In this document: positions 43,961 to 52,581 of the stretch, in pieces
Layout: every line of letters starts with the position of its first letter
How positions within the stretch are numbered: the stretch's first letter is position 1
Assembly (NCBI RefSeq): GCF_900100955.1
Contig: NZ_FNCC01000015.1
Coordinates: 36,419-100,418 of the forward strand
Reading direction: 5' to 3'
DNA from: Lentzea fradiae
Lineage (GTDB): Bacteria; Actinomycetota; Actinomycetes; Mycobacteriales; Pseudonocardiaceae
DNA length: 64,000 bases
The notes under the pieces: generated by a model
Databases searched by the model: none
What the model was told of the DNA's origin: nothing
Seen by the model: only the letters and a program-made list of their open reading frames with translations
Translations under genes and position numbers: made by a program

Positions 43961-45367
43961 GTGACCGTGACGGATTCTGACCTCAACGAGGGCCGTCAGC
44001 AGCTGAGCTTGGGTACGGCCGCCGCTCGTAATCTGGCCACGACCACCAAGTCCGTCCCGCAGATGCAGGGAATCACCTCCCGGTGGCTGCTCAAGGTGCT
44101 GCCGTGGGTCCAGGCTTCCGGTGGCGCGTTCCGCGTGAACCGCCGCCTCACCTACACCCTGGGCGACGGGCGCGTCTCGTTCACCAACGTCGGCGCCGAC
44201 GTGCGGGTCATCCCGATGGAGCTGACCGAGCTGGCGCTGCTCAAGGGCTTCGACGACGAGGCCGTCCTCGCCTCGCTGGCCTCCCGCTTCACGCAGCGGG
44301 AGTACGGCATCGGCGAGCTCATCGTCGAGAAGGGCCGGCCGAAGGACCAGGTCGTCCTCATCGCGCACGGCAAGGTCGACAAGGTCGGCACCGGCGAGTA
44401 TGGCGGCGAGACCGTGCTCGGCAACCTGGCCGACGGCCAGTACTTCGGCGAGACGGTGCTGGCCGGGCCGCAGGGCGAGTGGGAGTTCACCGCCAAGGCC
44501 GTCACCCCGGTCACCGTGCTCACGCTGTCCTGGCAGGACTTCCAGGCGCTCAACGGCGAGGCGGGCGGCCTGCGCGCGCACATCCAGCAGGCGTTCAACA
44601 ACCGCAACAAGCCGCAGGACGAGCACGGTGAGGCCGAGATCGACGTGGCTTCGGGCCACGACGGCGAACCGGTGCTGCCCGGCACGTTCGTCGACTACGA
44701 GCTCACGCCGCGCGAGTACGAGCTGAGCGTCGCGCAGACGGTGCTGCAGGTCCACACGCGCGTCGCGGACCTCTACAACAACCCGATGGACCAGGTCGAG
44801 CAGCAGCTGCGGCTCACGATCGAGGCCCTGCGCGAGCGCCAGGAGCACGAGATCGTCAACAACCGCTCGTTCGGCCTGCTGCACAACGCGGACCTCAAGC
44901 AGCGCATCCACACCCGCTCCGGCCCGCCCACCCCGGACGACTTCGACGAGCTGCTGTCGATCGTGTGGAAGGAGCCGAGCTACTTCCTCGCCCACCCGCG
45001 CACGATCGCCGCGTTCGGCCGCGAGCTCAACAAGCGCGGCCTGTACCCGCAGCACATCGACTTCAACGGCCAGAAGGTGCCGGCGTGGCGCGGCGTCCCC
45101 GTGCTGCCCTGCAACAAGATCCCGATCTCGGACACCCGCACGTCGTCGGTCATGCTGATCCGCGCGGGCGAGCACAACCAGGGCGTCATCGGCCTGCACC
45201 AGACCGGCATCCCGGACGAGTACCAGCCCGGTCTCTCCGTGCGGTTCATGGGCATCAACGACCAGGCGATCATCAACTACCTGGTCAGCGCCTACTACTC
45301 GGCCGCGATCATGGTGCCGGACGCGATCGGCGTCCTCGAGCACGTCGAGCTCGGCCGCGAGGGCTAG
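43961..45367 (+). CDS. Family 2B encapsulin-type shell protein (EshA-like), copy A
   Basis: A 468-residue protein. Residues about 1-80 and 215-468 match the HK97-type capsid fold of Family 2 encapsulins ([65 protein letters not shown]). An inserted cyclic-nucleotide-binding-like domain spans about 85-215 ([28 protein letters not shown]). In that domain's phosphate cassette the usual Arg is missing (Gly-Glu-Trp-Glu at the aligned site). Such proteins were long annotated as Crp/EshA regulators; Family 2B shells are now known to enclose terpene cyclases. GTG 43961 is chosen because copy B starts with the same VTVTD. It leads a seven-gene terpenoid operon. Confidence 0.93.
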
Positions 45368-45370
45368 GCG

Positions 45371-49943: not shown

Positions 49944-50885
49944 ATGACGGATCATCCGCCGCGTTCGGTGCTGCTCGCCTCTCCCCGGTCCTTCTGCGCC
50001 GGGGTGGAGCGCGCGATCGAGATCGTGGAACGACTGCTCGACCAGCGCGGCGGCCCCGTCTACGTGCGCAAGCAGATCGTGCACAACCTCCACGTGGTGC
50101 GGTCGCTGGAGGCGCGTGGCGCCGTGTTCGTGGAGGAGCTGTCCGAGGTGCCTTTCGGTGCCACGGCGGTGTTCTCCGCGCACGGCGTCTCTCCCGCGGT
50201 ACGCGCGGAGGCCAGGGAACGGTCGCTCGACGTGCTGGACGCGACCTGCCCGCTGGTCGCCAAGGTGCACTCCGAGGCCCGGCGGTTCGCCGACCGCGGC
50301 GACACCATCGTGCTGGTCGGTCACGCCGGGCACGAGGAGGTCGAGGGCACGCTCGGCGAGGCACCGGACCGGACGGTGCTGGTGGAGACCGTCGCGGACG
50401 TCGAGGCGCTGGAGATCACCGGGCCCGTCTCGTACCTGACGCAGACGACGCTGGCCGTGGACGAGACGGCCGAGGTCGTCGAGGCGCTGCGCCGCAAATT
50501 CCCCGGCCTGCGCGGGCCGGGCTCCGACGACATCTGCTACGCCACCACGAACCGGCAGGTCGCGATCCGCGAGGTCGCGGAGCGGTCAGACCTCGTGCTG
50601 GTCGTGGGCTCCCGCAACTCGTCCAACTCGGTGCGGATGGTCGAGCTGGCCGCCCGCACCGGCACCCCGGCGCACCTGATCGACGACGCGTCCGAGATCG
50701 ACCCGGCGTGGCTCGACGGCGTGTCGGCGGTGGGGGTGTCCGCCGGGGCCTCGGCACCGCCGGAGCTGGTGGACGAGGTGGTGCGGGCGTTGCGGGAGCT
50801 GGGAGCCGTCTCGGTGTCGACGCACACGACCGCGACGGAGACGATCGCGTTCACCCTGCCGCCGGCGGTGCGCCGTGCTGGCTGA
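49944..50885 (+). CDS. ispH: 4-hydroxy-3-methylbut-2-enyl diphosphate reductase
   Basis: A 313-residue iron-sulfur enzyme, the last step of the MEP pathway, making IPP and DMAPP. The three cluster cysteines are present: Cys18 ([12 protein letters not shown]), Cys102 (DATCPLV) and Cys198 ([10 protein letters not shown]). The catalytic Glu/His region [16 protein letters not shown] is also intact. It lies in the encapsulin operon between the prenyl synthase and DXS genes and overlaps dxs by 11 nt. It is probably a second, pathway-dedicated copy in addition to a housekeeping one elsewhere; that cannot be seen here. Confidence 0.95.
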
Positions 50886-52581
50886 CATCACCTCGCCCGC
50901 GGACGTGCGGGCCCTGCCGTCGGCGAAGCTGCGCGGGCTGGCGGAGGAGATCCGGTCGTTCCTGGTCACGAAGGTGCACCGGACGGGCGGGCACCTCGGC
51001 CCGAACCTCGGTGCGGTGGAGCTGACCATCGCGGTGCACCGGGTGTTCTCCTCCCCCACCGACGTCGTGCTGTTCGACACCGGCCACCAGTCGTACGTGC
51101 ACAAGATGCTCACCGGCCGCTGCGCCGACTTCGACTCGCTGCGCCAGGCCGGTGGCCTGTCCGGCTACCCGTCCGCCGCCGAGTCGGCGCACGACGTCGT
51201 GGAGAACTCGCACGCCTCGACCGCACTGTCCTATGCGGACGGTCTGGCGAAGGCGTTCGAGCTCTCCGGCGCCGACCGCCGCGTGGTGGCGATCGTGGGT
51301 GACGGCGCGCTGACAGGCGGCATGTGCTGGGAGGCGCTGAACAACATCGGCGGTGCGTCCCGGCCGGTCGTGGTGCTGCTGAACGACAACGGCCGTTCGT
51401 ACGACCCGACGGCGGGAGGGTTCGCGGCGGCGTTGCGCGCCGGTTCGGCCCGCCCGCTGTTCGAGGCGATGGGGCTCGCGTACCTCGGCGAGGTCGACGG
51501 CCACGACGTGCACGCCGTCGAGCAGGCGTTGTGGGAGGCCAAGTCCCTCGGCCGTCCCGTCGTCGTGCACTGCAAGACGGTGAAGGGCAAGGGTTACGCC
51601 GCCGCGGAAGCCGACGAGGCCGACCGCATGCACGCGGTCGGCGCCTCCGGTGCCTCCGGCGGCCGGACCTGGACGGACGCGTTCTCCGACGAGATCGTCC
51701 GCCTCGGCGCGGAACGCCGGGACGTCGTCTGCCTGAGCGCCGCGATGCTGGAACCGGTCGGCCTGCGCCCGTTCTCCCGGCGGTTCCCGGACCGCACCTT
51801 CGACGTCGGGCTGGCCGAGCAGCACGCCGTGACGTCCGCCGCCGGCATGGCGATGGGCGGCCTGCACCCGGTCGTCGCCGTCTACTCGACGTTCCTGTCC
51901 CGCGCGTTCGACCAGCTGCTGATGGACGTGGCCCTGCACCGGCTGCCGGTGACGTTCGTCCTGGACCGCGCCGGCGTGACAGGCGCGGACGGCGCGTCGC
52001 ACCACGGCATGTGGGACGCGTCCGTGCTGCCCGTGATCCCGGGTCTGCGCCTGGCCGCCCCACGCGACCCGGCCTCGCTCGCCGCGTTGCTGCGCGAGGC
52101 CGTCGAGGTGTCCGACGGCCCGACGGTCGTGCGCTACCCGAAAGCCGCTCTCGGCCCGGACGTGCCGGCGGTGCGGCGCGTCAGCCACTTCGACGTGCTG
52201 CGCGAAGCCCCGGACGCCGAGGTGCTGCTCATCGCCGTCGGCCCGCTGGCACCAGCCTGCCTCGCCGCCGCGGAAGAGCTGGCCGCGCACGACGTCCGCG
52301 TGAACGTCGTCGACCCGCGCTGGACCGCCCCGCTCGACCCGCACCTGGTCAAGTACAGCGGCCAGCACCGCCTGGTCCTGGCCGTCGAGGACACCACGTC
52401 CACCGGAGCACTGGGCGCCCGCCTCGGCCAAGCGCTGGCCGGTTCCCCGTCGTGCGTCGTGACGTTCGCCCTGCCACCACGTTTCCTGCCGCACGACACC
52501 CGTGCACGCATCATGCGCGCCCACGGCCTCGACTCGGCGGGCATCACGACGAGCGTGCTGAAGCGCCTCGGCGTGAAGTGA
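50875..52581 (+). CDS. dxs: 1-deoxy-D-xylulose-5-phosphate synthase, short form
   Basis: A 568-residue thiamine-diphosphate enzyme, first step of the MEP pathway (pyruvate plus glyceraldehyde phosphate to DXP). The key motifs are present: [24 protein letters not shown], the TPP motif [16 protein letters not shown] and the catalytic Glu in [15 protein letters not shown]. It is about 60-70 residues shorter than typical DXS (620-640); the missing part lies between the first and second domains (the second starts near residue 265). The GTG start lies 11 nt inside ispH. Being rate-limiting, DXS in this operon would boost flux to the terpenoid. Its end overlaps the convergent acyltransferase gene by 38 nt. 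Confidence 0.92.

Follow-up and report, generated by a model that had tools for sequence, protein, structure and literature searches.

Two-component operons of Family 2B encapsulins are counted at 503 in PMC12407261, which describes among them a terpene cyclase/polyprenyl transferase (TC/PT) type that can have cyclases between the two shell genes, Enc1 and Enc2, and the PT gene directly after Enc2. The sections of PMC8346489 consulted here report 165 systems with TC and PT, the PT systems often encoding precursor genes. They give the shells within one operon as roughly 60% identical, and propose the consensus GPTGLGT(SAAR) as a targeting sequence. The locus studied here bears on the question why such operons contain a pair of shells and a pair of cyclase modules. 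It lies in a stretch of 64,000 nucleotides from Lentzea fradiae, contig NZ_FNCC01000015.1 (hereafter the window), and on contig C23 of that organism's 8.5-Mb genome (G000). The operon encodes two shells, two cyclases (TC1 and TC2), a PT, IspH and DXS. Our computational analysis indicates that TC2 is a conserved pseudo-cyclase, of which we found no report in the encapsulin literature searched.

The seven genes, all on the + strand, extend from position 43961 to 52581 in the order Enc1-TC1-TC2-Enc2-PT-IspH-DXS. Open reading frames and family profile scores bore out this content and order, as proposed in a first-pass annotation of the same DNA. TC1 and TC2 overlap by 8 bases and IspH and DXS by 11, and the remaining intergenic gaps measure 3 to 11 bases. 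With cyclases between the shell genes and PT directly 3' of Enc2, the operon is of the TC/PT type, and since two-shell TC/PT operons (PMC12407261) as well as PT systems with precursor genes (PMC8346489) are in print, its overall plan is of a published kind. The first-pass annotation had considered the combination of two shells, an inactive cyclase and a precursor set to be unusual; both shells and the dead cyclase are indeed there, but the plan as such had already been published.

Enc1 (43961..45367, longest frame from 43952) and Enc2 (47458..48873) score 771.5 and 736.7 bits, respectively, with the Family 2B profile NF041163 (cut-off 400). Both carry an SrpI-like domain (PF19307) and a cyclic nucleotide monophosphate (cNMP)-binding domain (PF00027), and they are 63% identical to each other. 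The Enc1 start at 43961, already chosen in the earlier annotation, agrees with the conserved start GTGAC(T/C)GTGACGGATTC shared by the homologues. A two-component Family 2B system has two shell genes with starts at most 10 kb apart and a motif 1 that differs between Enc1 and Enc2. Here the starts are 3.5 kb apart, and motif 1 reads VWK in 23/23 Lentzea Enc1 and RRR in 23/23 Lentzea Enc2 sequences, similar to TVWK and RRRK in the S. lydicus pair (PMC12407261). That pair is of the xylulose kinase type, whereas the Lentzea operon contains two separate cyclases, the second one dead, together with IspH and DXS. By analogy with it, a single shell built from both Enc1 and Enc2 is the most likely assembly. 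For motif 2, in the luminal loop, an ad hoc pattern worked poorly, missing 11 of the 23 Enc1 and all Enc2 sequences; by eye the corresponding stretch of Enc1 in the window resembles AVDFHGHSLP and that of Enc2 does not.

Matches to the Rfam family RF02735 (Sernc350) were seen on the - strand opposite both shell genes, at 43989-44496 (211 bits) and 47504-48005 (154 bits). Sernc350 is described in PMC3827479 as antisense to SACE_3976, a gene with a cyclic-nucleotide-binding domain in S. erythraea. We did not accept these matches as evidence for antisense RNAs over the shells, because the conserved shell coding sequence alone could produce them.

TC1 (45371..46450) has as its nearest solved structure the N-domain of germacradienol/geosmin synthase (5DW7 and 5DZ2, 489 bits). 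Its metal-binding motifs FDDEF and NDIFSYERE are intact in all 23 Lentzea sequences and, as both the Asp-rich and the Asn/Ser/Glu (NSE) motif are present, TC1 is predicted to be an active class I cyclase. It is likely a C15 cyclase because of its closeness to the germacradienol/geosmin synthase N-domain. In a cyclase tree of 144 domains (FastTree, midpoint root, local supports 0.71 to 0.91, deeper nodes weak at 0.14 and more) TC1 groups with the N-domains. Most of the others have DDHF as their Asp-rich motif, unlike TC1, so its product may differ from theirs. The C-terminal tag PTGLGT (46400..46422, + strand, pattern match G000:C23:82818-82840) equals the GPTGLGT consensus.

With the profile for two-domain geosmin-synthase-like cargo (NF041168, cut-off 1200 bits), TC1 scores 583.2, over the N-terminal half, and TC2 274.6. 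TC1 shares a GPTGLGT-type C-terminal tag with the cyclases of that family and differs from them, like TC2, in being a separate single-domain protein. Even a natural TC1-TC2 fusion (locus L049) remains under the cut-off at 855.3. The profile for 2-methylisoborneol synthase (2-MIBS)-like cargo (NF041167, cut-off 400) gave 42.6 bits for TC1 and no listed match for TC2. This weakens the comparison with 2-methylisoborneol systems drawn earlier, the relevant relatives of the cyclases being geosmin-synthase-like. Those systems resemble the present one in their Family 2B shell and GPTGLGT-type tag (PMC8346489), but neither TC1 nor TC2 belongs to the 2-MIBS family, and the 2-MIBS-like gene of Lentzea lies away from the operon.

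TC2 (46443..47450, + strand; PF19086, 88.4 bits) has VTDAF at the DDxxD position. None of the 22 inactive copies (window and L044-L064) has the N, S or E of the NSE motif, and 20 of them also lack the first Asp of the Asp-rich motif, L061 and L062 keeping DD. L065 has the lone TC2 among 23 Lentzea copies with both metal motifs. The two motifs that mark an active class I cyclase were thus not found in TC2 of the window, in keeping with the inactivity first proposed for it. At the former first-Asp site seven different residues occur, with D in two copies, and the stretch that replaces the NSE motif, RQEIVGF, is mostly conserved, differing in L061-L064. The tag letters P, G, L, G and T (P-x-GLGT) are fixed in 22/22 inactive copies; in the window the C-terminal tag reads PSGLGT (47412..47434, + strand, pattern match G000:C23:83830-83852).

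None of the 23 TC2 frames contains an internal stop. Ratios of nonsynonymous to synonymous substitution (dN/dS) were calculated by the Nei-Gojobori method as medians of 190 pairs from 20 loci (window and L044-L062), and are rough for a GC-rich genome. They were 0.284 for TC2, 0.283 for Enc2, 0.176 for Enc1, 0.159 for PT, 0.156 for TC1, 0.127 for IspH and 0.125 for DXS, which indicates purifying selection on TC2. The predicted TC2 model has a mean predicted local distance difference test score (pLDDT) of 90.4 and a predicted template modelling score (pTM) of 0.87, the tail at residues 315-335 being the sole stretch below 50. Its best solved match by Foldseek is 5dz2 (TM-score 0.87/0.90), and the fold is accordingly predicted to be intact.

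TC2 is 34% identical to TC1 and has the same nearest solved domain (174 bits). In the tree, TC2 does not group with the geosmin C-domains. It falls instead with the second modules of L070, L072 and L123, with the TC2s encoded separately in L065-L069 and, from L071, with the first module of the second cyclase. These relatives retain both metal motifs, whereas Lentzea TC2, except in L065, does not. A similar decay of a second cyclase module is seen in another family: at L120 (G570, 9361-13519) Enc1 is accompanied by a cyclase of two modules, the second of which has neither motif yet ends in SGLGT; the second shell match of that locus lacks the cNMP-binding part. A cyclase module with a fixed tag and no catalytic residues separates docking from catalysis, so that one can test directly what the tag does and whether a second module is needed.

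TC1-type and TC2-type modules are fused in L070, L072, L096 and L123, and in L049 (Lentzea sp. NEAU-D7) a 1-base shift joins TC1 and TC2 into one frame of 707 residues. For the fold prediction of the L049 chain, 22 two-domain cyclases were aligned, because an alignment mixing single with fused cyclases, tried for a TC1-TC2 heteromer and dropped, had placed both halves on one module. The fused chain is predicted with a pTM of 0.84 and with pLDDT below 50 at residues 326-360 (linker) and 676-707 (tail), the sites of both tags, which suggests that the TC1 and TC2 modules pack together. L067, L068 and L069 each have, between TC2 and Enc2, a distant third cyclase, whose motif WWAADDLYAD is like that of the 2-MIBS-like gene.

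PT (48877..49932) passes the profile of the encapsulin-cargo polyprenyl transferases (NF041169) narrowly, with 463.4 versus 450 bits. IspH (49944..50885; PF02401, 312.1 bits, cut-off 24.5) and DXS (50875..52581; TIGR00204, 503.2 bits, cut-off 465.95) are second genomic copies, the better-scoring ones being found on C40 for IspH (320.7 bits) and C41 for DXS (618.5 bits). The operon DXS has 568 residues, compared to 634-637 for the housekeeping copy, and positions 187-232 of the TIGR00204 model fall between its two matched pieces. One PT motif variant is conserved in 23/23 Lentzea and is, as we take it, the form seen in geranylgeranyl diphosphate (GGPP) synthases. A straight line from DXS to a sesquiterpene, as the first-pass annotation had drawn it, is therefore not established, although its sesquiterpene end fits the likely C15 cyclase TC1. 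In the eight PT sequences viewed, the N-terminus is short and shows no such tag.

The DXS and IspH of the window are 64-73% identical to the copies in L108, L110 and L123, versus 54-59% to the housekeeping copies. PT, IspH and DXS also lie together with no shell match in the fetched stretches of L179 (G315, 19.9 kb) and L180 (14 kb). At L179 the IspH and DXS are 71% and 66% identical to those of the window, and an IspG-like frame (named by eye) and a distant cyclase follow. IspH-DXS in L181, and DXS with a distant PT in L182, occur likewise without a shell match. A DXS search of 394 genomes (E <=1e-150) matched 19. In four of the five genomes with a DXS at least 66% identical to that of the window, the gene lies, judged by its coordinates, beside shells (own genome, G417, G657 and G625), the fifth being G315; three of the remaining 14 were examined (L180, L181 and L182). 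The set was accordingly rejected as specific for encapsulins, and the comparison argues for a precursor module that attaches to terpene loci whether or not these have shells. The operon does hold extra DXS and IspH copies, as in the earlier picture of a dedicated supply, but since PT-IspH-DXS occur without shells in L179 and L180, 'dedicated' was an overstatement.

The order of the seven genes is the same in 22/22 other Lentzea loci fetched, the genes broken as assembled being DXS in L057 and both PT and DXS in L060. A 24th Lentzea genome (G290) shows a single shell, truncated where its contig of 3657 bases ends. Co-occurrence of the seven genes, put forward earlier as a check on the operon, was thus found throughout these loci, but the flanking genes are equally kept: the upstream neighbours are in place in 21/22 (not in L065), and so are the downstream ones (in L062 the fetched stretch does not reach them). 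Since these unrelated genes are as conserved as the operon, order within the genus proves little, and it was rejected as the sole proof of functional linkage. Locus L123 (G625), from another family, provides better evidence. Its order is Enc1-[TC1-TC2]-Enc2-PT-IspH-DXS, so that the same arrangement is found in two families, and its DXS and IspH are 64% and 71% identical to those of the window. It differs in that TC1 and TC2 form one two-domain protein with motifs in both modules.

In the wider class, Family 2B shells were found in 113 of the 394 genomes drawn from it (E <=1e-100), 108 of them over the cut-off. We hand-picked 60 shell loci for variety among the matches listed; two shells are present in 23 of these, a cyclase in 30, a PT in 24, and a cyclase between shells in 8. 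IspH was matched in 5, DXS in 4 and both in 3 (L108, L110 and L123). At 29% identity, the DXS match of L113 is not a genuine one, and the IspH of L121 is nearer to the housekeeping type (63 versus 59%). L108 and L110 have the order two shells-PT-IspH-DXS, with no cyclase match within the fetched stretch.

The best explanation as a whole is, in our opinion, a mixed-shell terpene operon in which TC1 is the active cyclase, TC2 a non-catalytic tagged partner, and PT, IspH and DXS the supply. We hold it with moderate confidence, as TC2 being a partner of TC1 is an inference. In its favour are the gene families and their order in two families of bacteria, motif 1 of each shell, the intact motifs of TC1, the fused cyclases with the predicted fold of L049, the decayed second module of L120 and, for TC2 itself, the lost motifs together with the fixed tag, the purifying selection and the intact predicted fold. 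DXS and IspH would raise the flux through the methylerythritol phosphate pathway, and PT would make an allylic diphosphate, C15 or C20. TC1, entering by its C-terminal PTGLGT tag, for which targeting is a published proposal, would cyclise farnesyl diphosphate to a sesquiterpene (alcohol) inside the mixed Enc1/Enc2 shell. TC2 would descend from an active second cyclase module that lost its Mg/diphosphate-binding residues in Lentzea and kept its fold and tag. Its likeliest role would be non-catalytic, as a partner of TC1 whose extra docking tail holds the pair within the shell. The PT-IspH-DXS module would often, though not always, be joined to such shells.

Several observations weigh against this explanation. 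TC2 evolves fastest of the seven, with a median identity of 80.6% versus 88.6 to 93.7% for the others, which also fits relaxed constraint. The TC2 of L063 and L064 is 55% identical to the main group, compared to 91 to 95% for Enc1, TC1 and Enc2 and 90-95% for the other operon genes taken together, with a four-fold-site difference of 0.48 for TC2, pointing either to allele replacement or to fast evolution. The TC2 of L066-L069 has its motifs but is untagged, so a TC2 does not always carry the tag. A sequencing error may account for the L049 fusion, and the mixed shell leans on a pair of the xylulose kinase type. The first two of these observations, together with the loss of both metal motifs, would also be expected if TC2 were a decaying relic, no longer used once the TC1 product had become the end product, its frame lingering for its position between the shell genes of a translationally coupled operon. 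We regard this as unlikely, given 23 copies free of stops, a dN/dS level with that of Enc2, a tag fixed in 22/22 copies and a well-formed predicted fold.

Two further possibilities appear to us quite improbable, and about equally so. TC2 might retain a chemical or binding role independent of diphosphate ionisation, such as binding the TC1 product or catalysing a diphosphate-independent step. The largely conserved RQEIVGF and the active appearance of the second-module relatives are in line with such a role, but N, S and E are absent from every inactive copy and the replacement motif itself differs in L061-L064. Alternatively, PT might be the encapsulated step that matters. The shell would then serve a prenyl product of greater length, IspH and DXS would feed PT, and the cyclases would be secondary. 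The PT score above the cargo cut-off, the cyclase-free stretches of L108 and L110 and the conserved motif, presumably GGPP-synthase-like, would all suit this possibility, whereas TC1 is slow-evolving (dN/dS as above) and clearly tagged, and the short N-terminus of PT showed no such tag in the sequences viewed.

The non-catalytic partnership of TC2 with TC1 may be part of a wider arrangement. In 24/24 Lentzea genomes, no Family 2B shells (E <=1e-60) were found other than those of this operon, of which 23 genomes have two and G290 a single truncated copy. The tag, searched for as a DNA pattern, matched 5 places in the own genome, versus 1 for a reversed-pattern control. Four of the five are cyclase genes, namely TC1, TC2, a gene on C22 and a gene on C20, and the fifth is in a non-cyclase frame. 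The C22 gene encodes a two-domain geosmin-synthase-like protein (NF041168, 1077.2 bits, under the cut-off of 1200), which ends in PSGLGT in this genome and in 2/3 others examined, and in PSGIGT in the third. The C20 cyclase (locus L167, C20:412-2327), 412 bases from the contig end, scores 446.4 versus 400 with the 2-MIBS-like profile NF041167 and adjoins a geranyl diphosphate methyltransferase (505 versus 400). This cargo family was matched in 23/24 Lentzea genomes, 22 of them over the cut-off, and not in G222. PSGLGTSAAR stands at the cyclase N-terminus of the cyclase-methyltransferase pair in 22 other Lentzea genomes (L184-L205), and an extra divergent cyclase, L183, has PSGIGT. An Enc1 search near the 2-MIBS-like cyclases gave no match in 23 stretches of 4 to 4.5 kb, and in the single-contig genome G272 the shells lie near 5.82 Mb and the 2-MIBS-like cyclase near 6.61 Mb.

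Because the only Family 2B shells lie in the operon while 23 genomes carry a tagged 2-MIBS-like cyclase elsewhere, these data suggest that cargo is shared in trans, the operon shells serving tagged cyclases of other loci; the tags may also persist for reasons other than loading. We put forward only tentatively that one two-component shell is a shared terpene organelle with four tagged cyclases from three loci as clients (TC1, the dead TC2, the geosmin-synthase-like and the 2-MIBS-like cyclase), in which TC2, a former cyclase, would serve as structural cargo, organising the docking of its active partner or doubling it. A sole shell pair with tagged cyclases elsewhere was not found described in the encapsulin literature searched. 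Geosmin and 2-methylisoborneol clusters have been reported in Lentzea by PMC9120177, the consulted part of which does not mention encapsulins, and PMC12224551 reports that every geosmin cluster in the myxobacteria it covers has encapsulins. If it is true that the shell pair takes geosmin- and 2-methylisoborneol-type cyclases from other loci, operon neighbours by themselves would not suffice to tell the cargo, and clients would be missed by surveys confined to the neighbourhood (20 open reading frames in PMC8346489).

The leader 5' of Enc1 (43556..43960, + strand) is partly conserved in Lentzea, as seen in an alignment of 23 upstream stretches. It contains an inverted repeat (43634-43648 / 43658-43670, CACCACTTCGAGTGG / CCACTCGAAGTGG), whose pattern matches 17/23 Lentzea leaders and which is a possible operator. 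Downstream of the operon, at 54032-56326, two citrate-synthase-like genes (named by eye) point away from each other; the pair occupies the same place in 20/22 Lentzea loci and lies farther off in L065. Within the main Lentzea group, the four-fold-site difference is 0.20-0.24 for Enc1, TC1 and Enc2 versus 0.30-0.34 for TC2, PT, IspH and DXS, one possible reason for the lower values being codon bias through high expression.

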